From positions 4,030,001 through 4,094,000 of the forward strand of contig NZ_CP072852.1 of NCBI RefSeq assembly GCF_017948265.1: 64,000 bases of DNA, given 5' to 3'. Within the stretch, counting starts at the first letter, position 1. The number at the start of each line of letters is the position of its first letter. The notes beneath the pieces are model-generated. The model saw nothing but the letters and a program-made list of their open reading frames with translations. It was not told the DNA's origin and did no database searches. The stretch comes from Rhodoferax sp. PAMC 29310 (GTDB taxonomy: Bacteria > Pseudomonadota > Gammaproteobacteria > Burkholderiales > Burkholderiaceae_C). The position numbers and the translations under genes are program-made. Shown here piece after piece: positions 20,885 through 43,954 of the stretch.

Positions 20885-22459
20885 ATGGACGAATTGATTA
20901 GCCAGGTGGCCACCCTTCTTCGGGGCATGTGGCGCCACCGGTGGTGGGGTTTGCTCATGGCTTGGGGGGTGACTGCAGTTGGGTCTGTTGTAGTGATGTC
21001 TGCCCCAGACAAATATGAAGCGACTGCGAGAATCTATGTGGATACTCAATCGATTTTGAAGCCTTTGATGTCTGGTTTAGCGGTCCAGCCAAATATCGAG
21101 CAACAGGTTGTGATGCTCAGTCGTACGCTCATCACTCGCCCCAATGTTGAAAAGTTAATCCGAATGGCGGATCTGGATCTGAAAAGTCAAACCAAGGCTT
21201 CTCAAGATGCGCTGATCGATGGATTGATGAAGTCACTGCAAATTCAAAACGCCGGACGAGACAATATCTATTCGTTGGCCTACCGTGACTCGAGCCCAGA
21301 TCAGGCCAAGAAAGTCATGCAGTCTCTCGTGTCCATTTTTGTCGAGTCGAGCCTTGGCAATACACGGCAAGATTCGGACACGGCCAAGAAGTTCATTGAT
21401 GAGCAAATCAAAGGCTATGTTGCGAAACTTGAAGAGGCTGAGGCCCGGCTTAAACAGTTCAGAGTTCGAAACATCGAGCTGCAGAATCCTGAGGGGCAGG
21501 ATATGGTGGGGCAACTGGGTGTCGTGAGTAGTCAGTTGAGTCAGGCTCGGTTGGAGCTGCATGAGGCGGAAAACGCACGCGATTCCGCCAAACGCCAGAT
21601 CGAAGCTGAAAAATCACAAAGCGCAGATACCACGACCCGCAGTCTTTTACAGGAATCGGCATTGTCGGTGTCGACGCCAGAAATAGACGCTCGTATAGAC
21701 GTTCAAAAACGCAATCTCGACACTTTGTTACAGCGTTTTACCGAGCTGCACCCTGATGTTTCCAACACTCGACGTCTCATTAAGGAGCTTGAAGCCCTCA
21801 AGCGCAAAGAGGTGGCAGAGTTACGCAAGGTGGCCATGGCGAATCCGATGAGGTCGTCTTCCAATAGCCTGGTGTTCCAAGAACTCAATCGAATGCTTGC
21901 GGTCTCCGAGGTGCAGGTTGCCTCCTTGAGGGCAAGGGTTAGTGAATACGAGGCGCGCGTCAACCGAGCTCGGTCGATGATGAAAACTGCGCCTCAAGTG
22001 GAAGCCGAGTACGCGCAATTGAATCGAGACTATGAGATCAACAAGAAGAACTATAACGATTTGGTTAGCCGCCGCGAGTCTGCCTCTATGTCGGGGGAGC
22101 TGGAAAGCGCGGCAGGCGTCGCTGATTTTCGCCTGATCGAGCCCCCTCGTGTCTCTCCAAAACCGGTCGCTCCCAACCGATTGTTGCTCATGCCGTTGGC
22201 CTTGTTGGCTGGACTGGCCGCGGGCTTGGGAGTTGCATTTGTTTTGAGCCAGTTGAGGGTGGTCTACTATGATGCGCGCGCCCTCGGAGACGCTGTGCGT
22301 CTGCCAATGCTAGGGACGGTGTCCATGGTGATGGGTGATGGCGCTACCCAGCGACGCAGGACTGAACTGTGGAAGTTTTTTGCTGCATTTGGGGGTTTGT
22401 TGATCGTTTTCGTTGCCGCAATGATTGCGATGTCTCTTTTGTCTGGTCGAGCAGGATGA
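20885..22459 (+). CDS. XrtA-system chain-length determinant protein (Wzz/GNVR type)
   Basis: This 524-residue inner-membrane protein has an N-terminal membrane segment (about 20-40), a long periplasmic part with coiled-coil helices (about 165-370) and two further hydrophobic segments near the C-terminus (about 430-450 and 500-520). The Pro-rich stretch RLIEPPRVSPKPVAPNR before the second segment is typical of Wzz/Wzc co-polymerases. It lacks a kinase domain, which is encoded by the next gene. Confidence 0.93.
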   Translation: MDELISQVATLLRGMWRHRWWGLLMAWGVTAVGSVVVMSAPDKYEATARIYVDTQSILKPLMSGLAVQPNIEQQVVMLSRTLITRPNVEKLIRMADLDLKSQTKASQDALIDGLMKSLQIQNAGRDNIYSLAYRDSSPDQAKKVMQSLVSIFVESSLGNTRQDSDTAKKFIDEQIKGYVAKLEEAEARLKQFRVRNIELQNPEGQDMVGQLGVVSSQLSQARLELHEAENARDSAKRQIEAEKSQSADTTTRSLLQESALSVSTPEIDARIDVQKRNLDTLLQRFTELHPDVSNTRRLIKELEALKRKEVAELRKVAMANPMRSSSNSLVFQELNRMLAVSEVQVASLRARVSEYEARVNRARSMMKTAPQVEAEYAQLNRDYEINKKNYNDLVSRRESASMSGELESAAGVADFRLIEPPRVSPKPVAPNRLLLMPLALLAGLAAGLGVAFVLSQLRVVYYDARALGDAVRLPMLGTVSMVMGDGATQRRRTELWKFFAAFGGLLIVFVAAMIAMSLLSGRAG

Positions 22460-22466
22460 TTCAATC

Positions 22467-23405
22467 ATGAGTAGTTTGATAGAGCAGGCGGCGCAACGCC
22501 TAGCCCAGCTTCGGCAGGCGGGTGTTGATGTGCCTGGCGGCACTATAGAGGCGAGTGTTGGCAATGGCGCCAAGCCCCCACAAGGTGTGTCGCCAATTGC
22601 CAAGCCCGAGACATCGCAGCCTGTCGCTCAGTCGCGACTTGTCGAAATTAACTTTGATGCGCTCGCTTTTGCCGGCATTGTTTCGCCACTGGCACCCAGA
22701 ACTCAAATTGCCGACCAGTACCGAGTAATCAAGCGCCCATTGATTGAAAACGCCATGGGCAAGGGTGCGTCGATAGTCGCCAACGGCAATTTGATCATGG
22801 TTACGAGTGCCGTAGCAGGAGAGGGAAAGAGTTTTACAGCAATCAATCTCGCCATGAGCATGGCAACAGAGCTTGATACGACTGTCATGTTGGTTGACGC
22901 TGATGTGGCGCGGCCTTCTGTCATGCGAGTTTTAGGGCTCCCGGAGGGGCCAGGGTTGCTGGATTTGGTGCTCGATGAGACCATTGATTTGTCGAGCGTA
23001 TTGCTTAGAACCAATGTAGATAAATTGACCATTCTTCCCAGTGGTACGCCGCATGAGCGCGCCACCGAGCTGTTGGCCAGTGATGCCATGATTCGTTTAC
23101 TTGATGACATGTCTCAGCGCTATGCGGACAGGATAATCATATTTGACTCGCCCCCACTTTTGCTGACAACAGAGGCAAGGGTTTTGGCTACACATATGGG
23201 ACAAATTGTGGTGGTCGTGAGAGCTGGCAGCACCCTTCAGTCGGAGGTCAAGCACGCACTGTCGACAATTGATGCCTGCCCAGTCAAGTTGATGCTGCTC
23301 AATCAGGCGACTGGTCTTTTCAGGGCGCAGGAGGGTTACGGTTACGGTTACGGTTACGGTTACGGTTACAGGCATCAGAATGAACAAGCAACTCAAAAAA
23401 CCTAG
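22467..23405 (+). CDS. XrtA-associated tyrosine autokinase (BY-kinase)
   Basis: This 312-residue BY-kinase has Walker A TSAVAGEGKS (113-122), Walker A' VMLVDADVARPS (140-151) and Walker B IIIFDSPP. ATG 22467, seven bases after the preceding stop, is preferred to an in-frame start inside the previous gene. Its C-terminal tail contains six Gly-Tyr pairs encoded by a perfect hexanucleotide repeat, the likely autophosphorylation cluster. The chain-length protein is the expected membrane partner, and the LMW phosphatase at 12035 the likely antagonist. It overlaps the next gene by 26 bases. Confidence 0.95.
   Translation: MSSLIEQAAQRLAQLRQAGVDVPGGTIEASVGNGAKPPQGVSPIAKPETSQPVAQSRLVEINFDALAFAGIVSPLAPRTQIADQYRVIKRPLIENAMGKGASIVANGNLIMVTSAVAGEGKSFTAINLAMSMATELDTTVMLVDADVARPSVMRVLGLPEGPGLLDLVLDETIDLSSVLLRTNVDKLTILPSGTPHERATELLASDAMIRLLDDMSQRYADRIIIFDSPPLLLTTEARVLATHMGQIVVVVRAGSTLQSEVKHALSTIDACPVKLMLLNQATGLFRAQEGYGYGYGYGYGYRHQNEQATQKT
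23334..23369 (+). repeat. Hexanucleotide tandem repeat (GGTTAC)6
   Basis: There are six perfect, uninterrupted GGTTAC units, encoding six Gly-Tyr pairs of the kinase tail. Unit gain or loss would keep the frame and change the number of tyrosines. Confidence 0.97.
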
Positions 23406-34478: not shown

Positions 34479-36395
34479 ATGTGCGGCATTACTGGAATAT
34501 TTGACACCCGCGGTAGCAGCGAGATCACCCGTGCCGTGCTCCAGCGCATGAACGACTCACAACTTCACCGCGGCCCCGATGAAGGCAGTTTGCACATCGA
34601 GCCGGGCGTCGGCTTGGGTCACCGACGCCTCTCCATTATTGACATCGCCACCGGCCAGCAGCCACTCTTTAACGAAGACGGCTCTGTGGTGGTGGTCTTC
34701 AATGGCGAAATCTACAACTACCAGCAACTCATCCCCGAGCTGCAGGCACTGGGCCACGTGTTTCACACCAAGAGCGACACCGAGGTCATCGTGCACGCCT
34801 GGGAGTCTTGGGGGCCTGACTGCGTCAAGCGCTTTCGTGGCATGTTTGCTTTTGCGCTGTGGGACCGCAATCAGCAAACCTTCTTCATGGCGCGCGACCG
34901 TCTGGGCGTCAAGCCCATGTACTACGCCCTGCTGGACGACGGCACCTTGCTGTTTGGCTCAGAACTAAAGTCCATCCTGGCGCATGGCGAGCTTCGCCGC
35001 GACATCGATCCCCTGGCTGTGGAAGAGTACTTTGCACTGGGCTATGTGGCCGAGCCACGTACCATCTTCAAGCAAGCCAAAAAACTCTCCCCCGCCCACA
35101 GCGTAACCATTCAGCGCGGGCAACCCATCCCTGAGCCGGTGGCCTATTGGGACGTCAAGTTCAGCTTGGATAACCCCATTTCTGAAGCCGACGCCCAAGC
35201 CGAACTCGTGCTGCGCCTGAAAGAGTCCGTGCGCCTGCGCATGATCGCCGAAGTCCCGCTCGGTGCCTTTCTCTCAGGCGGGGTGGACAGCAGCGCCGTC
35301 GTGGCCGTCATGGCCGGCTTGTCCTCCGAGCCGGTCAATACCTGTTCCATTGGTTTTGACGACCCGGCCTTCAATGAGTCTGCCTTTGCCCAAACAGTGG
35401 CTGACCGATACCAAACAAATCACAGGTTGGAAGTTGTCAAAAGCGACGACTTTGACCTCATCGACACCTTGGCCCGTCTTTATGACGAACCCTACGCAGA
35501 CAGTTCTGCCATCCCTACCTATCGTGTTTGCCAGTTGGCTCGCAAGCACGTCACTGTCGCACTCTCGGGTGATGGGGGTGATGAATCTTTTGGGGGCTAC
35601 CGCCGCTACCGTATGCACCTGATGGAAGAGCGCATGCGCAGCGCTTTGCCCATGGGAGTGCGCCGCCCCTTGTTCGGTGCGCTCGGCCGGCTCTACCCCA
35701 AGGCAGATTGGGCCCCGCGCATGTTTCGCGCCAAAACCACCTTCGAGGGGCTGGCCCGCAACTCGGTAGAGGCTTACTTTCACACCGTGTCCATACTGCG
35801 CGGCCCCATGCGTGACGCGCTGTTCAGCCCAAGCTTCAAAACCGAACTGGCGGGCTACAACGCGCAACAGGTCTTTGACCACCATGCCGGCAAGGCCGGC
35901 ACCGATGACCCCCTGGCGCTAATTCAGTACCTTGACCTGAAAACCTACCTGGTCGGCGACATCAACACCAAGGTAGACCGCGCCAGCATGGCCCATTCGC
36001 TGGAGGTGCGTGACCCGCTCATGGACCATGAGTTGGTCGACTGGCTTGCCACGCTGCCATCGCGCCACAAAATCAACGGGCAAGAAGGCAAGTACATTTT
36101 CAAAAAATCAATGGAGCCCTACCTGCCCAACGATGTGTTGTATCGGCCAAAAATGGGCTTTTCGGTGCCGTTGGCTCGCTGGTTTCGGGGTCCGTTAAAG
36201 CAGCGTGTGCGCGATGCCGTGTTGGGCGAGCGACTAGCCAGCACCGGTTGGTTCAATAAAACCTATCTGCAACACTTGGTGGAAAGCCATCAGTCTGGTG
36301 CCTACGATTACAGCGCGCCACTCTGGACACTGCTGATGTTTGAAGCTTTTTTGCGCCAAGTGGTTGACGCACCTTCTTCGGCAACCGCCCCATGA
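34479..36395 (+). CDS. XrtA-system amidotransferase (asparagine-synthase-like)
   Basis: This 638-residue class-II glutamine amidotransferase has the N-terminal nucleophile Cys2 (MCGITGIFDTRG), HRGPDEG, and the C-terminal synthase ATP-pyrophosphatase motif FLSGGVDSSAVVAVMA followed by LSGDGGDESFGGYRRY. In exosortase loci it probably amidates a uronic acid or other carboxylate of the polymer. It overlaps the following double glycosyltransferase gene by four bases. Confidence 0.95.
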   Translation: MCGITGIFDTRGSSEITRAVLQRMNDSQLHRGPDEGSLHIEPGVGLGHRRLSIIDIATGQQPLFNEDGSVVVVFNGEIYNYQQLIPELQALGHVFHTKSDTEVIVHAWESWGPDCVKRFRGMFAFALWDRNQQTFFMARDRLGVKPMYYALLDDGTLLFGSELKSILAHGELRRDIDPLAVEEYFALGYVAEPRTIFKQAKKLSPAHSVTIQRGQPIPEPVAYWDVKFSLDNPISEADAQAELVLRLKESVRLRMIAEVPLGAFLSGGVDSSAVVAVMAGLSSEPVNTCSIGFDDPAFNESAFAQTVADRYQTNHRLEVVKSDDFDLIDTLARLYDEPYADSSAIPTYRVCQLARKHVTVALSGDGGDESFGGYRRYRMHLMEERMRSALPMGVRRPLFGALGRLYPKADWAPRMFRAKTTFEGLARNSVEAYFHTVSILRGPMRDALFSPSFKTELAGYNAQQVFDHHAGKAGTDDPLALIQYLDLKTYLVGDINTKVDRASMAHSLEVRDPLMDHELVDWLATLPSRHKINGQEGKYIFKKSMEPYLPNDVLYRPKMGFSVPLARWFRGPLKQRVRDAVLGERLASTGWFNKTYLQHLVESHQSGAYDYSAPLWTLLMFEAFLRQVVDAPSSATAP

Positions 36396-38740
36396 CATTG
36401 CGCGTCCTCCACGTTCTTGATCACTCCATTCCGCTGCACAGCGGCTATACCTTTCGCACGGCTGCTTTGTTGCGTGAGCAACGCGCTTTGGGCTGGCAAA
36501 CCTTTCACGTCACCTCCCCCAAACAGGGGCAGATCAAAGCGGCCGAAGAAGATGTGGATGGACTGCATTTTTACCGCACCCCAAGCGGCACCGGGTTGCT
36601 GGCCAATGTGCCGGTGGGTCGTGAAGTCGCCTTGATGAAAGCCTTGGGCCATCGGCTTGAAGAAGTCGCCCGCCAGGTCAAACCCCACATCATTCACGCC
36701 CACTCGCCCGTGCTCAATGCACTGCCGGCCCTCAAGGTGGGGCGCAAGCTGGGCATACCGGTGGTCTATGAAATACGCGCCTTTTGGGAAGATGCTGCGG
36801 TCGACCATGGCTCCACCGATCAAGGCAGTCTGCGCTACCGCGCCACCCGCAGTCTGGAAACTCGCGCCATCCGGCGCGCCGACCACGTGTTCACCATTTG
36901 CGAAGGCCTGCGTGCCGACATCGTGGCCCGTGGCGTACCCAGTGCCAAAGTTACGGTCATCCCCAACGCAGTCAACGTTGATGCGTTCAACCTGGCCAGC
37001 CCGCCAGACCCTGCGCTGCAAGCGCAGCTCAACTTGGGTGGTTGTACCGTTATTGGTTTTATCGGATCCTTCTACGCCTATGAGGGGCTCGATTTGTTGC
37101 TGGACGCCCTGCCTGCGCTGCTCAAAGCCCGCCCTGATGTCAAAGTATTGCTCGTAGGCGGCGGGGTGCAAGAAGCCAACTTGCGCCAGCAGGCGCAGCA
37201 GCTGGGTGTGGCCGACAAAGTGGTGTTTGCCGGCCGTGTGCCGCACCAAGACGTCAATCGCTACTACGACCTCATTAACGTGTTGGCCTACCCGCGCCAC
37301 CCCATGCGCCTGACAGAGTTGGTCACCCCGCTCAAGCCGCTTGAGGCCATGGCCCAGGGCCAACTCTTTGTCGCCTCCGATGTGGGGGGGCACAAAGAAC
37401 TCATTGAGCACAATAAAACAGGTGTGCTGTTCAAGGCTGGCAGTGCAGAGGCCCTCTCACAGGCTCTGTTAGACCTGCTCAGCAACCCGGCTCTGTGGCC
37501 CGTGCTCAAAACCAATGGCCGTGAGTTTGTGGAAAACGTACGCAACTGGAAAAACAGCGTTGCCAACTATGTCGAGCCTTATGAAAGACTCACTTTGGGA
37601 AAAAATCAGACTGCCAACACGCCAACACGCCAACACGCCACCATGATCGCTAAAGAGTTGCCCGGGCTGCATGTTGGCCTCATTGGGCCGTTGCCGCCGC
37701 CCTCAGGTGGCATGGCTAACCAGACGCGCCAGTTGGCTGAGTTGTTAGTCGCCGCAGGTGCCAAAGTAACCACCGTTCAGGTCAATGCGCCTTACCGCCC
37801 CAACTGGGTGGGCCGCGTACCCGTGTTGCGCTCCGTGTTTCGGCTATTGCCCTATCTGGCCAACCTTTGGCGCACGGCAGGCCAAGTCGACATTTTTCAC
37901 ATCATGGCCAACTCCGGCTGGTCTTGGCATTTGTTTGCTGCACCAGCCGTATGGGTGGCACGCAGCCGTGGCGTGCCGGTGGTCGTCAATTACCGGGGAG
38001 GTGAGGCCGCTGAATTTCTGCGGCGCGCAGGCGATCTCGTGCGCTTCACCATGGGTCAAACACGGGCCTTGGTTGTGCCATCAGGATTTTTACAGACCGT
38101 GTTTGCCCAGTTTGGCATGCAAGCCGGCATTGTTCCCAACATCATTGACCTTAGCCGGTTTCATGCGCGTGATCCAGTTCGCACAGGCTCGCCGCACCTG
38201 TTTGTGGCCCGCAATCTTGAACCGCTATACGACAACATGACGGCCATCCGCGCGTTTCAGCTTGTGCAGGCCAAGTTTCCAGAAGCCCGCCTGACCATCG
38301 CCGGCAGCGGCCCAGAAGAGCAACGCCTGCGCCAATCGGTGCAAGAAATGGGGCTGACAAGTGCCGTGCAATTCGCGGGCCGCCTGGAGCGCGACGCCAT
38401 GGCCTCCCTCTATCGCAGTGCAGACATCATGATCAACCCTAGTTTGGCCGACAACATGCCCAACTCAGTGCTGGAGGCTTGGGCCAGCGGCGTACCCGTG
38501 GTCAGCACCAACGTCGGGGGTATTCCATATCTGGCGCAGCATGGCGTCACTGCCGATCTGGTACCTCCCGCTGACCCCTCCGCCATGGCCGGTGCGTGCA
38601 TCACTTTGTTATCAGACGCTGCACTATGGCAACAGCGTGCACAAGCCGGCCTGCAGGAGGCACAACGCTACACTTGGAATCGCGTGCAGCCCGTGTTGTG
38701 CGATGTTTATCGACGCGCAATGGCGCAGCCAGCACGCTGA
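36392..38740 (+). CDS. Double glycosyltransferase (two GT4 enzymes in one frame)
   Basis: This 782-residue product joins two complete GT4 enzymes. Residues 1-405 match the exosortase-linked family opening VLHVLDHSIPLHSGYTFR (TIGR04063-like), with a C-terminal domain ending near NVRNWKNSVANYVEPYERL. Residues 418-782 start at an internal ATG (37643), MIAKELPGLHVGLIGPLPPPSGG (a normal N-terminus), and end in a second donor domain (VVSTNVGGIPYLAQ). The linker is encoded by the octamer repeat at 37613-37636. Removing one copy puts TAA at 37651-37653 in frame, and adding one puts TGA at 37644-37646 in frame. The fusion therefore depends on the present copy number. Confidence 0.9.
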   Translation: MTLRVLHVLDHSIPLHSGYTFRTAALLREQRALGWQTFHVTSPKQGQIKAAEEDVDGLHFYRTPSGTGLLANVPVGREVALMKALGHRLEEVARQVKPHIIHAHSPVLNALPALKVGRKLGIPVVYEIRAFWEDAAVDHGSTDQGSLRYRATRSLETRAIRRADHVFTICEGLRADIVARGVPSAKVTVIPNAVNVDAFNLASPPDPALQAQLNLGGCTVIGFIGSFYAYEGLDLLLDALPALLKARPDVKVLLVGGGVQEANLRQQAQQLGVADKVVFAGRVPHQDVNRYYDLINVLAYPRHPMRLTELVTPLKPLEAMAQGQLFVASDVGGHKELIEHNKTGVLFKAGSAEALSQALLDLLSNPALWPVLKTNGREFVENVRNWKNSVANYVEPYERLTLGKNQTANTPTRQHATMIAKELPGLHVGLIGPLPPPSGGMANQTRQLAELLVAAGAKVTTVQVNAPYRPNWVGRVPVLRSVFRLLPYLANLWRTAGQVDIFHIMANSGWSWHLFAAPAVWVARSRGVPVVVNYRGGEAAEFLRRAGDLVRFTMGQTRALVVPSGFLQTVFAQFGMQAGIVPNIIDLSRFHARDPVRTGSPHLFVARNLEPLYDNMTAIRAFQLVQAKFPEARLTIAGSGPEEQRLRQSVQEMGLTSAVQFAGRLERDAMASLYRSADIMINPSLADNMPNSVLEAWASGVPVVSTNVGGIPYLAQHGVTADLVPPADPSAMAGACITLLSDAALWQQRAQAGLQEAQRYTWNRVQPVLCDVYRRAMAQPAR
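37613..37636 (+). repeat. Octamer tandem repeat (GCCAACAC)3 at the glycosyltransferase junction
   Basis: Three perfect eight-base units are followed by GCCACC and the internal ATG at 37643. Eight is not a multiple of three, so unit gain or loss shifts the frame of everything upstream relative to the second enzyme. Confidence 0.97.
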
Positions 38741-38755
38741 CCAATCGGAGTTGAT

Positions 38756-40099
38756 GTGGGTTTCTATACGTCTTTTGTTTCCAGGCTATTGTTTCCGCTG
38801 CATGAGCAACTCAAGCACCATGACTCGGTTGCCGTGCGCCGCCAAATGGAAGACGTGCAGTGGTGGCCGGCGCAGCGCATCGCGGCCTTTCAACTGCAGC
38901 GCCTGCGAGATCTATTGCAGGATGTAGCCGTTAACGTCCCGTATTACCGTGACCTGTTTGCGCAGTTGGCGTTTGACCCCACCAGTGTGCAAAGCACGGC
39001 TGACCTGCAACACCTGCCGTTTCTCACCAAAACCATCATTCGCACCAACACCGACGAGCTCAAACACATTCATGCGCAGGGTCTGGCGCGTTTCAATACC
39101 GGCGGTTCATCTGGCGAGCCGCTTATTTTTTACATCGGCAACAAGCGCGTCAGCCACGACGTAGCCGCCAAGTGGCGCGCCACTCGCTGGTGGGGCGTTG
39201 ACATTGGCGACCCCGAAATTGTGGTTTGGGGCTCGCCCATTGAGCTTGGCAAGCAAGACCGCATCAAGGCGGTGCGCGACAAACTCTTGCGCACTCAGTT
39301 GCTGCCCGCGTTTGAAATGTCTGAGGCCAAGTTGGATCAATTCGTTGCCACCATTCGCGGGGTCAAGCCCCGCATGTTGTTTGGCTACCCATCTGCCTTG
39401 ACGCACATTGCCAAACATGCTCAAAAACGCGGCGTGGACATGACTGATTTGGGCATCAAAGTGGCTTTCGTGACCTCAGAGCGACTGTATGACGAGCAGC
39501 GCAGCACCATCTCACAGGCGTTTGGCTGCAAGGTCGCCAACGGCTATGGTGGGCGTGACGCTGGCTTTATTGCCCATGACTGCCCAGCCGGCAATATGCA
39601 CCTCACCGCAGATGACATCGTGGTTGAAATCGTCAACGAAGCGGGGCAAGTTCAACCTGAAGGTGTGGCCGGCGAAATCGTGGTGACCCACCTGTCAACC
39701 AACGACTTTCCCTTCATCCGTTACCGTACCGGTGACATCGGCGTGCTGGGCGCCACACCGTGCAGCTGTGGGCGGGGTTTGCCGCTGCTGCAAGACATTC
39801 AGGGCCGCAGCACCGACTTTGTGGTGGCCGCAAACGGCACGGTCATGCATGGCCTGTCGCTGATCTACATCTTGCGTGACTTGCCAGGTGTAAGGTTCTT
39901 TAAAGTCGTTCAGGAATCCCGCACGCTTACCCGTGTGCAGCTGGTCATTGATGATGCGTTTCCGCCAGACGCAATTGCCAAAATCATCTCCGGTTTCAAG
40001 CAACGCCTGGGCGCCGAGGTGCAGGTGGTCGTCGACCTAGTCGACAACATTCCCGCCGAAGCATCCGGAAAATTCAGGTACATCATCAGCCATGCGTGA
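38756..40099 (+). CDS. CapK/PaaK-like adenylate-forming ligase
   Basis: This 447-residue protein is of the phenylacetate-CoA-ligase fold used in capsule loci. It has FNTGGSSGEPLIFYIG (Ser/Gly-rich nucleotide loop), VANGYGGRDAGFIAH, and FPFIRYRTGDIGVLG near 320. The acyl substrate is unknown. The GTG at 38756 has GGAG five bases upstream; an ATG at 38754 is in another frame. It overlaps the next gene by eight bases. Confidence 0.88.
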   Translation: MGFYTSFVSRLLFPLHEQLKHHDSVAVRRQMEDVQWWPAQRIAAFQLQRLRDLLQDVAVNVPYYRDLFAQLAFDPTSVQSTADLQHLPFLTKTIIRTNTDELKHIHAQGLARFNTGGSSGEPLIFYIGNKRVSHDVAAKWRATRWWGVDIGDPEIVVWGSPIELGKQDRIKAVRDKLLRTQLLPAFEMSEAKLDQFVATIRGVKPRMLFGYPSALTHIAKHAQKRGVDMTDLGIKVAFVTSERLYDEQRSTISQAFGCKVANGYGGRDAGFIAHDCPAGNMHLTADDIVVEIVNEAGQVQPEGVAGEIVVTHLSTNDFPFIRYRTGDIGVLGATPCSCGRGLPLLQDIQGRSTDFVVAANGTVMHGLSLIYILRDLPGVRFFKVVQESRTLTRVQLVIDDAFPPDAIAKIISGFKQRLGAEVQVVVDLVDNIPAEASGKFRYIISHA

Positions 40100-41396: not shown

Positions 41397-41399
41397 TTG

Positions 41400-42335
41400 A
41401 TGTTCAAACAGCTTCTTGGCTGGGCCTCCCCAGCCGGCCCCAAAGCCCGTCTGTCCGTGCTCATCTTTCACCGCGTACTGCCCGAGCCAGACGCCTTATT
41501 CCCCCAGGAAATACACGCCCGCCGCTTTGATGAACTCTGCGGCTGGGTGGCCGCCTGGTTCAACGTGCTGCCGCTTGACCAAGCTGTGGTCCGCTTGCAG
41601 GCGGGCACCTTGCCAGCCCGCGCCGCCTGCATCACATTTGACGATGGTTATGCCGACAACCTCCATGTGGCCATGCCCATCCTGCAGCGCCATGGCTTAA
41701 CAGCCACCTTTTTCATCGCCACCGGCTTTCTGGACGGCGGCCGCATGTGGAACGACACCATCATTGAGACGGTCCGTGCCTGCCAAGGGGCTGTGCTTGA
41801 CTTGTCAGCTATGGGTTTAGGTACTCATGTTCTGGGAACGGTGGCCGCGCAGCGGGCTGCCATCGCGTCGCTTATTGGCCAAATCAAATACCGCCCCGTT
41901 GCGGAACGCCTCAAGCTCACTGAACAGATCGCCCGCATCGCCAAAGTGCAGCCGCCCCAAAACCTGATGATGACCTCCAAGGAGGTCAAAGCCATGCGCC
42001 AAGCCGGTATGCAAATCGGCGCACACACCGTATCGCATCCCATTTTGGTCAGGCTCACCGATGATCAGGCCAGGCAAGAAATTGGCAACAGCAAGCGCTT
42101 TCTGGAGGAATTGCTTGGCGAGCGTATTGCCGTCTTTGCCTACCCCAATGGCAAGCCGGACGAAGACTACTCACCACAAAGTGTCGAAGTAGTGCGTCGC
42201 ATGGGCTTCGATGCCGCCGTAAGCACCCAATGGGGCGCTTCATGCATGGGTGATGACACGTTCCAAATAAAGCGATTCACTCCTTGGGATAAAACCCGGT
42301 TGAAGTTTGGATTGAGGTTGCTAAGAAATTTATAG
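41400..42335 (+). CDS. Polysaccharide deacetylase (NodB-like)
   Basis: This 311-residue protein has LIFHRVLPEPD near the N-terminus, the catalytic CITFDDGYADN, GAHTVSHPIL (metal histidines) and FAYPNGKPDEDYS. It is a different subfamily from the deacetylase at 27173 and is common beside exosortase-linked ligases. ATG 41400 overlaps a TTG two codons... one codon upstream; either gives nearly the same protein. Last gene of the plus-strand core. Confidence 0.92.
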   Translation: MFKQLLGWASPAGPKARLSVLIFHRVLPEPDALFPQEIHARRFDELCGWVAAWFNVLPLDQAVVRLQAGTLPARAACITFDDGYADNLHVAMPILQRHGLTATFFIATGFLDGGRMWNDTIIETVRACQGAVLDLSAMGLGTHVLGTVAAQRAAIASLIGQIKYRPVAERLKLTEQIARIAKVQPPQNLMMTSKEVKAMRQAGMQIGAHTVSHPILVRLTDDQARQEIGNSKRFLEELLGERIAVFAYPNGKPDEDYSPQSVEVVRRMGFDAAVSTQWGASCMGDDTFQIKRFTPWDKTRLKFGLRLLRNL

Positions 42336-42424: not shown

Positions 42425-43954
42425 TCACGCCATTTTGAAATTCGGCGCCTTGGCGGCCAGCCACTGCTCCAACATCATCAAAATCCAGACCATTTCACCA
42501 AAGTAGCCGGGGTGTTCAGGCAAGCGTTTGGTCAACAGGGTCTCAATGAAGTCCGTGCGGACTACGCCGCGTTTGGCTAGGCTGTGCAATGACTCCGTAG
42601 CCAGTGCTTTCAGCTCAGGGTGGGAGTTGGCCCAGACGCCAAAGGGCAGGCCAAAGCCCTGCTTCCTCTTGGTCAAAATCTCATCCGGCAAAAAGCCGCG
42701 CAGCGCTTCCTTGAAAAACCAACGCAGCTTCATGCCCTTCAACTTGTAGGCAGAGGGGAGCTTTAGCGAGAAATCAACCATCCGGTCATCCAGCATGGGG
42801 AACCCAACCTCAACGCCGGCGCAGTGGGTGGCGCCCATGACCTTAGGTAAATCAATCTCGGCCAAGGTATAGCGCCAGTCATAGGCAAGCTCCTTGTTCA
42901 GTTCGCTGCAGTTTGTTGCACCCTTCCATACTTCGCTCTGAAAGTGAAGCGGTGCTGCAACGTCAATTTGCCCCATAAATTCGGGCGTGAGCACTTCTGC
43001 GGGGCCCAAATGCATGATTAGGTTGTACATCTGCAGGCGGTCCGGCATCGGCTCGCGAGCCTGCTCCACATAGCTACCTGCTTTTCTGGTTAAGGCGAAG
43101 CGTGATGCCAGACCTGTGTTTAACAGCGGTTCCAGCACTGATTTTTGCAGCAACTCAGGCACGTTTTGGTACCAGCCAAAAACCCGCTGCTTTGCGTAGC
43201 GTGTATTGCCGCCAAACAGCTCGTCACCGCCGTCGCCGCCCAGTATTTTTGTCACGCCATCTTCTCGCGCCATCTTGGCGCAATAGTAAGAGGGTAGGGC
43301 AGACGAGTTACCAAACGGCTGGTCGTAGTGCGCTGCCACCTTGGCAATGCCTTGCACCAGGTCGTCTGGGGTCACGTAGTACTCGTGGTGCTCGGTTTTG
43401 AAGTGTTTGGCAGCTAGGCGTGCGTACTCCATCTCGTCGTAGCCTTGGGCGTCGAAGCCAATGGAGTAGGTGGCAGCAGTCTTGCCACTGGCCAGCCCGA
43501 TCATGCCAGCCAAGGTCGAGCTGTCGGTTCCCCCGCTTAAAAAGCAGGCGGGCTTGCTCCCGTCCAATTGCGTGGCCACAGCGTCTTGCAGCAATTGGAG
43601 GAATTCGCCCTTGAGCGCATCAAACGATGGCTTAGGCAGCTCGTCAAACTGGGGCACCCAATTGCGCTCAACCTTGACTTGGCCGTTGTGCAGGGTGGCA
43701 GTGTGGCCAGGTGGCAGGCGGTAAATGCCTTTATAGATGGTGCGTGGCGAGGGAATGACGTGAAAGTACAGGTAGTCAAAAATAGCCTGTGGGTCAATCG
43801 GTGTATTTGCATCGGCCAGTTCATCAGCCCGGTGCGCAAAGCGCAGTTGGCCGTTGTCCACGCGGTAACATAGCGAGTGGAGGGCAAAGCGGTCTACGCT
43901 TATTTCTCCCCGCGCAAGGGTGCCAAGGGCTGAGAATGTTTGAGTCAATGGCAT
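42425..43954 (-). CDS. Asparagine-synthase-like protein lacking the Cys2 nucleophile
   Basis: This 509-residue protein has the synthetase domain with FLSGGTDSSTLAGMIG (PP-loop) and LGGDGGDELFGGNTRYA. The N-terminal glutaminase domain is shortened: it begins MPLTQTFSALG rather than MCG, and only its later strands (FDYLYFHVIPSPRTIYKGIYRL) remain. It therefore probably uses ammonia or another nucleophile, or catalyses a different adenylation. It is the last gene of a minus-strand block and is separated from the beta-helix gene by 84 bases. Confidence 0.88.
   Translation of the reverse strand: MPLTQTFSALGTLARGEISVDRFALHSLCYRVDNGQLRFAHRADELADANTPIDPQAIFDYLYFHVIPSPRTIYKGIYRLPPGHTATLHNGQVKVERNWVPQFDELPKPSFDALKGEFLQLLQDAVATQLDGSKPACFLSGGTDSSTLAGMIGLASGKTAATYSIGFDAQGYDEMEYARLAAKHFKTEHHEYYVTPDDLVQGIAKVAAHYDQPFGNSSALPSYYCAKMAREDGVTKILGGDGGDELFGGNTRYAKQRVFGWYQNVPELLQKSVLEPLLNTGLASRFALTRKAGSYVEQAREPMPDRLQMYNLIMHLGPAEVLTPEFMGQIDVAAPLHFQSEVWKGATNCSELNKELAYDWRYTLAEIDLPKVMGATHCAGVEVGFPMLDDRMVDFSLKLPSAYKLKGMKLRWFFKEALRGFLPDEILTKRKQGFGLPFGVWANSHPELKALATESLHSLAKRGVVRTDFIETLLTKRLPEHPGYFGEMVWILMMLEQWLAAKAPNFKMA

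Follow-up and report, generated by a model that had tools for sequence, protein, structure and literature searches.

A single open reading frame in the DNA analyzed here, a stretch of 64,000 nucleotides from Rhodoferax sp. PAMC 29310 (referred to as the window), encodes two glycosyltransferases joined at a tandem octamer repeat. Does this repeat serve as a switch between one bifunctional protein and two separate ones, or did it arise by an accident that fused two neighboring genes?

Structure of the Fused Protein and Its Operon

The original prediction held that three octamer units join two complete GT4 enzymes. This description was accurate: the array is perfect, the open reading frame (positions 36392-38740, + strand) specifies 782 amino acids, and both halves match glycosyltransferase families. 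The first part, GT1 (residues 1-400; 36392-37591, + strand), belongs by profile match to the TIGR04063 (stp3) family of PEP-CTERM/XrtA system glycosyltransferases, with a whole-protein score of 735 bits against a curated cut-off of 442 and a best stretch covering residues 4-400. The second part, GT2 (37643-38740, + strand), was recognized by family and domain matches and as the neighboring gene in 51 distinct junctions; Pfam placed GT4-type domains in the second half of the fused protein. Besides TIGR04063, PelF (NF038011, 118.5 against 100) was the sole family to pass its cut-off among the 25 listed for the fused protein, and the PelF score sums two stretches of the protein. By these matches GT2 is of the GT4 type, with no equivalog name securely assigned.

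Judged by the family matches, both halves are intact and look functional, and the fused protein would be bifunctional. Comparison of GT1 with its counterparts in three relatives (loci L024, L026, and L030) yielded dN values of 0.07-0.10 and dS values of 0.99-1.29, and that of GT2 with L042, L043, and L058 yielded 0.11-0.17 and 1.37-1.88, respectively; by these values, both halves are under purifying selection against their relatives. The linker region between the enzymes (37592-37666, + strand) is short and hydrophilic. Relatives vary at the end of GT1 and over the opening residues of GT2, so that neither fold is likely to be disturbed by the linker.

According to its profile matches, the locus is an exosortase-A (XrtA/PEP-CTERM) exopolysaccharide operon. 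TIGR03109, TIGR03108, TIGR03097, TIGR03007, TIGR03027, and TIGR03018 all scored above cut-off; exosortase A, amidotransferase, and ligase genes stand in the operon region together with those for a chain-length determinant, an export protein, a tyrosine autokinase, and a deacetylase. The type of locus is marked by exosortase A (TIGR03109; 30334-31926), which carries an EpsI-like C-terminal domain. The upstream neighbor of the fused gene, assigned by profile match and comparison with relatives, is the XrtA/PEP-CTERM system amidotransferase (TIGR03108; 34479-36395), whose gene overlaps the start of GT1 at 36392 by 4 nt. Downstream follow an AMP-ligase-like protein (38756-40099; family and domain matches), which is kept as a neighbor in relatives, a putative O-glycosylation ligase (TIGR03097; 40092-41396; profile match), and a polysaccharide-deacetylase-like protein (41397-42335), which was recognized by comparison with relatives and by profile matches below the curated cut-offs. 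All of these genes lie on the + strand.

The Octamer Array

Tandem Repeats Finder identified (GCCAACAC)3.5 at 37613-37640 (+ strand), a 28-bp array of period 8 with 100% match that consists of three full GCCAACAC units and a partial GCCA. The unit is not a multiple of three, and the array is located near the 3' end of the gene for the first enzyme. A pattern search found two consecutive GCCAACAC units at a single place in the whole 4.59 Mb genome; a dispersed repeat family was ruled out on this basis.

The background for array counts, 464 kb in all, combined the window with 400 kb sampled from its genome. It contained nine period-8 arrays of at least 2 copies, two of at least 2.5 copies, and one of at least 3 copies, namely that at 37613-37640. 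Perfect arrays of at least three copies and at least 20 bp (periods 4-24) accounted for eight rows in the real sequence (seven places, two rows overlapping) and did not appear in any of ten third-order Markov simulations of 464 kb each. As the simulations gave none against eight real rows, and as no other period-8 array reached three copies, the octamer array is beyond chance.

Dependence of the Reading Frame on Unit Number

Reading frames were recomputed over the number of units. With 0, 3, or 6 units the two enzymes are fused. With 1, 4, or 7 units GT1 stops at a TGA (37644-37646) that overlaps an ATG (37643-37645), and with 2, 5, or 8 units it stops at a TAA (37651-37653, + strand). A one-unit tract gives a GT1 of 412 residues that ends in the ATGA retained in the window. 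The recomputation agreed with the original prediction, in which two units would end GT1 at the TAA, four would end it at the TGA overlapping the internal ATG, and both of these phases would produce an overlapping two-gene layout. The unit number thus sets the C terminus of GT1, or fusion, by frame arithmetic only; fusion is the outcome for one unit count in three and is by itself nothing special.

The ATGA (37643-37646, + strand), whose TGA is now out of the GT1 frame, recurs as a motif in relatives and is likely a relic of an ancestral stop-start overlap. Direct reading of the sequence detected no purine-rich ribosome-binding site immediately before the ATG at 37643. Because of this, GT2 is probably made only within the fusion in the fused phase, and in the split phases it would be made via coupling. 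RNA structure at the junction was considered separately and rejected, as the 131-nt RNA folds worse than its shuffles (z 1.97).

Arrangement of the Two Genes in Relatives

The loci examined comprised the best 80 of 577 confirmed loci and those from further searches, a selection rather than a full census; the nearest matches came from loci named Rhodoferax and Polaromonas. A junction pair was defined as a GT1 homologue of at least 50% identity followed by a GT2 homologue of at least 42% identity within 300 nt of the GT1 stop. Loci from the window itself and from the genome sample were left out, as were those whose GT1 fell below 50% identity or lacked a stop before the end of the locus, GT2 matches below 42% or beyond 300 nt from the stop of GT1, and duplicate junctions; 51 distinct junctions were retained. 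By the same identity and distance limits, 65 loci (not deduplicated) carried GT1 without an adjacent GT2. GT2 without GT1 upstream occurred in 11 of the loci inspected.

In each of the 51 junctions, GT1 and GT2 were neighbors and were not fused. An exact 4-nt NTGA overlap was seen in 28 and some overlap in 31; these counts depend on the rule by which GT2 starts were assigned, namely to the in-frame start codon closest to the position expected. L042, L043, L100, and L058, the four relatives with the closest GT2 (76-84% identity), are among the 28 and all read ATGAC at the junction. Neither an octamer array nor any array of period 5-12 with at least 2.5 copies occurred in these 51 junctions, and one 4-mer array of 2.5 copies was present in L057. 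The comparison of gene structure that had been proposed with the original prediction therefore revealed split genes, often with the ATGA-type overlap of the 3k+1 states, and a fusion common to all relatives is out for those examined.

From their long open frames (823 and 872 codons), L118 and L132 had the appearance of fusions, but GT1 and GT2 are read in separate frames there. The open frames of G200 and G312 (414 and 592 codons) are too short for both enzymes.

Since none of the 51 relative junctions is fused or holds the octamer array and 28 show the NTGA overlap, the fused state is, by this comparison, derived, and it is known from one genome among those examined. The ancestor was likely in a 3k+1 state, because the nearest GT2 relatives read ATGAC, the window keeps ATGA, and a single unit would restore the TGA within it as the stop of GT1.

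Ancestry of the Two Halves

As evident from identity values, the two enzymes have different closest relatives. GT1 was 82-88% identical to seven copies (L024-L028, L030, and L031, mostly named Rhodoferax), none of which has GT2 behind it, and 90-92% identical to two pieces from genome G021 (L138, 239 aa; L139, 132 aa). Its identity fell to 66-70% with the first enzymes located ahead of the six closest GT2 relatives. The flanking genes did not follow this pattern: against L042, L043, L058, and L133, identities were 91-92% for the amidotransferase, 76-84% for GT2, 82-85% for the AMP-ligase-like protein, and 72-80% for the O-ligase. L036 represented a mixed case (GT1 79%, GT2 56%).

The DNA alignments to the Rhodoferax-type GT1 stop at 37583-37594, and the alignment to L058 resumes at 37674. 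Sliding identity, the alignment ends, and a junction DNA query together placed the change of ancestry within about 37584-37674, in the linker region. That query, 220 bp long, matched in 11 of the 89 genus genomes searched: in full in the genome of origin, at the end of GT1 only in eight, and at the start of GT2 only in two. None of the other genomes among the 89 matched across the whole junction. In the GT1 tree, which was restricted to rows covering at least 85% of the query and thus omitted the two G021 pieces, the window grouped with the Rhodoferax set (8 rows, support 100/99, among the rows listed). The GT2 tree placed it with Polaromonas C04 (98/81) inside a 6-row set supported at 100/100. 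Tree placement and alignment ends together show a mosaic in which the octamer sits where ancestry changes, from a Rhodoferax-type GT1 to a Polaromonas-type GT2.

In G021, the amidotransferase gene is followed directly by the window's type of GT1 (L139). A C-terminal piece of GT1 is located on another contig (L138), where it is followed by unrelated genes and not by GT2; the two pieces do not meet. Because the window's GT1 type follows the amidotransferase in one place and the other piece has unrelated genes behind it, either side of the mosaic may be the one that was replaced.

Proposed Origin of the Fusion

We consider it somewhat probable that a tandem duplication at the mosaic junction fused two intact enzymes and that the result is a tolerated accident, with rare reversion possible, rather than an evolved switch. 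To judge from the relatives, the ancestral exosortase-A exopolysaccharide operon would have contained two adjacent GT4 genes, coupled because the stop of one and the start of the next overlapped in ATGA. Recombination would have joined the Rhodoferax-type first gene to the Polaromonas-type second gene at their boundary; the mosaic itself is apparent from the comparisons, and the order of events is what we infer. An 8-bp stretch would have been duplicated in tandem, from one unit to three, either by two duplications of 8 bp or by one of 16 bp. As read from the sequence, this duplication would have moved the TGA out of the GT1 frame and so produced one protein of 782 amino acids with a short hydrophilic linker. 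If a unit were gained or lost, the two coupled genes could return, with low frequency. Speaking against the one-unit ancestor, no genome with one unit at the exact junction was found, and it would be a modest coincidence for one octamer to be duplicated twice with no earlier slippage.

The original prediction had named a recent accident as the alternative to a slipping tract, and this alternative fits better. The accident is preferred because there are only three units, no array is present in the 51 relative junctions, and the junction is unmatched across its length in the other genomes of the 89 searched. The locus would then be a clean example of how operon neighbors coupled by ATGA can become one protein when a few bases are duplicated in tandem where two ancestries meet.

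Slippage and Published Repeat-mediated Fusions

Gene fusions made by repeats have already been published, as the accessible parts of the following reports attest. In Neisseria, a repeat near the 3' end of NGK_1211 sets one of three frames, one of which fuses the gene to its neighbor NGK_1212 (PMC5320596), and a 3' repeat in kdtA (NMB0014/NMB0013) likewise fuses the gene to its neighbor in one of three frames (PMC5953494). As in the window, a repeat at the 3' end decides fusion with the neighboring gene, but these tracts are poly-G, with strain-to-strain variation reported for NGK_1211 (PMC5320596), whereas the window has an octamer in one genome. According to a passage of the same report, pglB2 of Neisseria meningitidis is fused to a downstream phosphoglycosyltransferase gene, apparently via a repeat tract (PMC5320596), so that two sugar-pathway enzymes are joined as they are here; however, that tract is poly-A in a protein-glycosylation locus, and ours is an octamer in an exosortase-type exopolysaccharide operon. 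The available portion of PMC11130364 makes no mention of the pglB2 fusion. HP0326 of Helicobacter pylori 26695 is, in the excerpt available, also a one-strain fusion, of two genes that share a 7-nt overlap in the remaining strains tested, but it arose from a single inserted C and not from a tandem unit (PMC3046158). The same repeat class as the window's was surveyed in Haemophilus influenzae with a threshold of 3 units, and the tract ATTATTTG spans 1 to 6 units among strains; in the part of that survey consulted, the octamer tracts lie between or upstream of genes, in contrast to the coding junction of the window (PMC2651432). The authors of GeneTack, in the text available, include both translational coupling and phase variation in the classes that underlie such frame transitions (PMC3711429).

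These precedents bear on the reading as a contingency locus, in which slipped-strand mispairing of the octamer would reversibly toggle the operon: with 3k units it would make a single bifunctional enzyme, with 3k+1 or 3k+2 units two enzymes coupled in translation, and enzyme ratio, channeling, or product would change accordingly. A perfect frame-shifting tract lies exactly at the gene boundary, the products of all three phases are plausible, and surface polysaccharides are a usual target of phase variation; the Neisseria fusions (PMC5320596, PMC5953494) and the range of the H. influenzae octamer tract (PMC2651432), as far as the available sections describe them, agree with such a mechanism. 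Yet the tract has only 3.5 copies, its three full units standing at the threshold for octamers and at the lowest length counted, as given in the sections of two surveys (PMC2651432, PMC5953494). The array is also unique in the genome and absent from the 51 relative junctions, and the change in phenotype may be small, as both enzymes are kept in all three phases. We therefore regard a contingency locus as unlikely. A narrower version is that of a nascent switch. In the exosortase-type exopolysaccharide operon of an environmental bacterium, a minimal octamer tract would let two neighboring glycosyltransferases alternate between a single bifunctional product and a stop-start-coupled pair, and the recombination junction would carry a contingency locus at the moment of its origin. 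This version appears decidedly unlikely. The window is a candidate of repeat-mediated C-terminal or read-through phase variation; because the tract is not kept in relatives, membership in this class is not claimed. The locus was absent from the titles and abstract openings of the papers found on exosortase or Rhodoferax with phase variation. If several unit numbers do exist, fusion-type phase variation would extend to environmental exopolysaccharide loci, and the locus would offer a simple system for asking whether fusing neighboring glycosyltransferases changes the polymer.

A Second Frame-changing Array in the Genome

A perfect 17-bp tandem array of 3.3 copies was observed where the HDOD domain encoded by a kinase-HDOD gene ends (L144 5380-5435; G000:C1:1025380-1025435). 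This gene is in three pieces with two frame changes, one of them within the array. In 31 of the 39 other genus genomes with a match its open frame extends over 804-886 codons, and in the other eight over 185-588 codons. The gene is the mirror image of the octamer case, a normally whole gene that has been split. Either through a real event or through mis-assembly, this genome thus has another frame-changing tandem array, one with no evident role in switching, and this favors an accident or an assembly artefact for the octamer as well.

An assembly artefact would mean that the real unit number differs and that the two genes are in fact separate. The broken kinase-HDOD gene, open in most other genus genomes with a match, lends this reading some weight. 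On the other hand, 28 bp is a short tract whatever the read type, the genome is a single contig with 100% completeness, and family matches show the operon genes on either side to be open and of full length. We consider an artefact improbable. That the fusion is stable and selected, with two consecutive glycosyltransferases joined for fixed stoichiometry or channeling and the repeat left only as a birth scar, is quite unlikely, because even though the conserved neighborhood suggests one pathway for GT1 and GT2 and both halves are intact and under purifying selection against relatives, no other junction of the 51 is fused, and the repeat copies are still identical, which points to youth. The accident at the mosaic junction is retained as the preferred explanation.

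Additional Features of the Operon Region

A second asparagine-synthase-like protein is encoded at 42425-43954 on the - strand. It matches only positions 139-626 of TIGR03108 and, to judge from this partial match, is without most of the N-terminal amidotransferase part. A perfect (GGTTAC)6 array at 23334-23369 lies in the gene for the XrtA-associated tyrosine autokinase (TIGR03018; open reading frame 22425-23405) and specifies six Gly-Tyr pairs of the enzyme's C-terminal tail. The repeat unit is a multiple of three, so that a change in copy number would alter the number of tyrosines in the tail and cause no frameshift.
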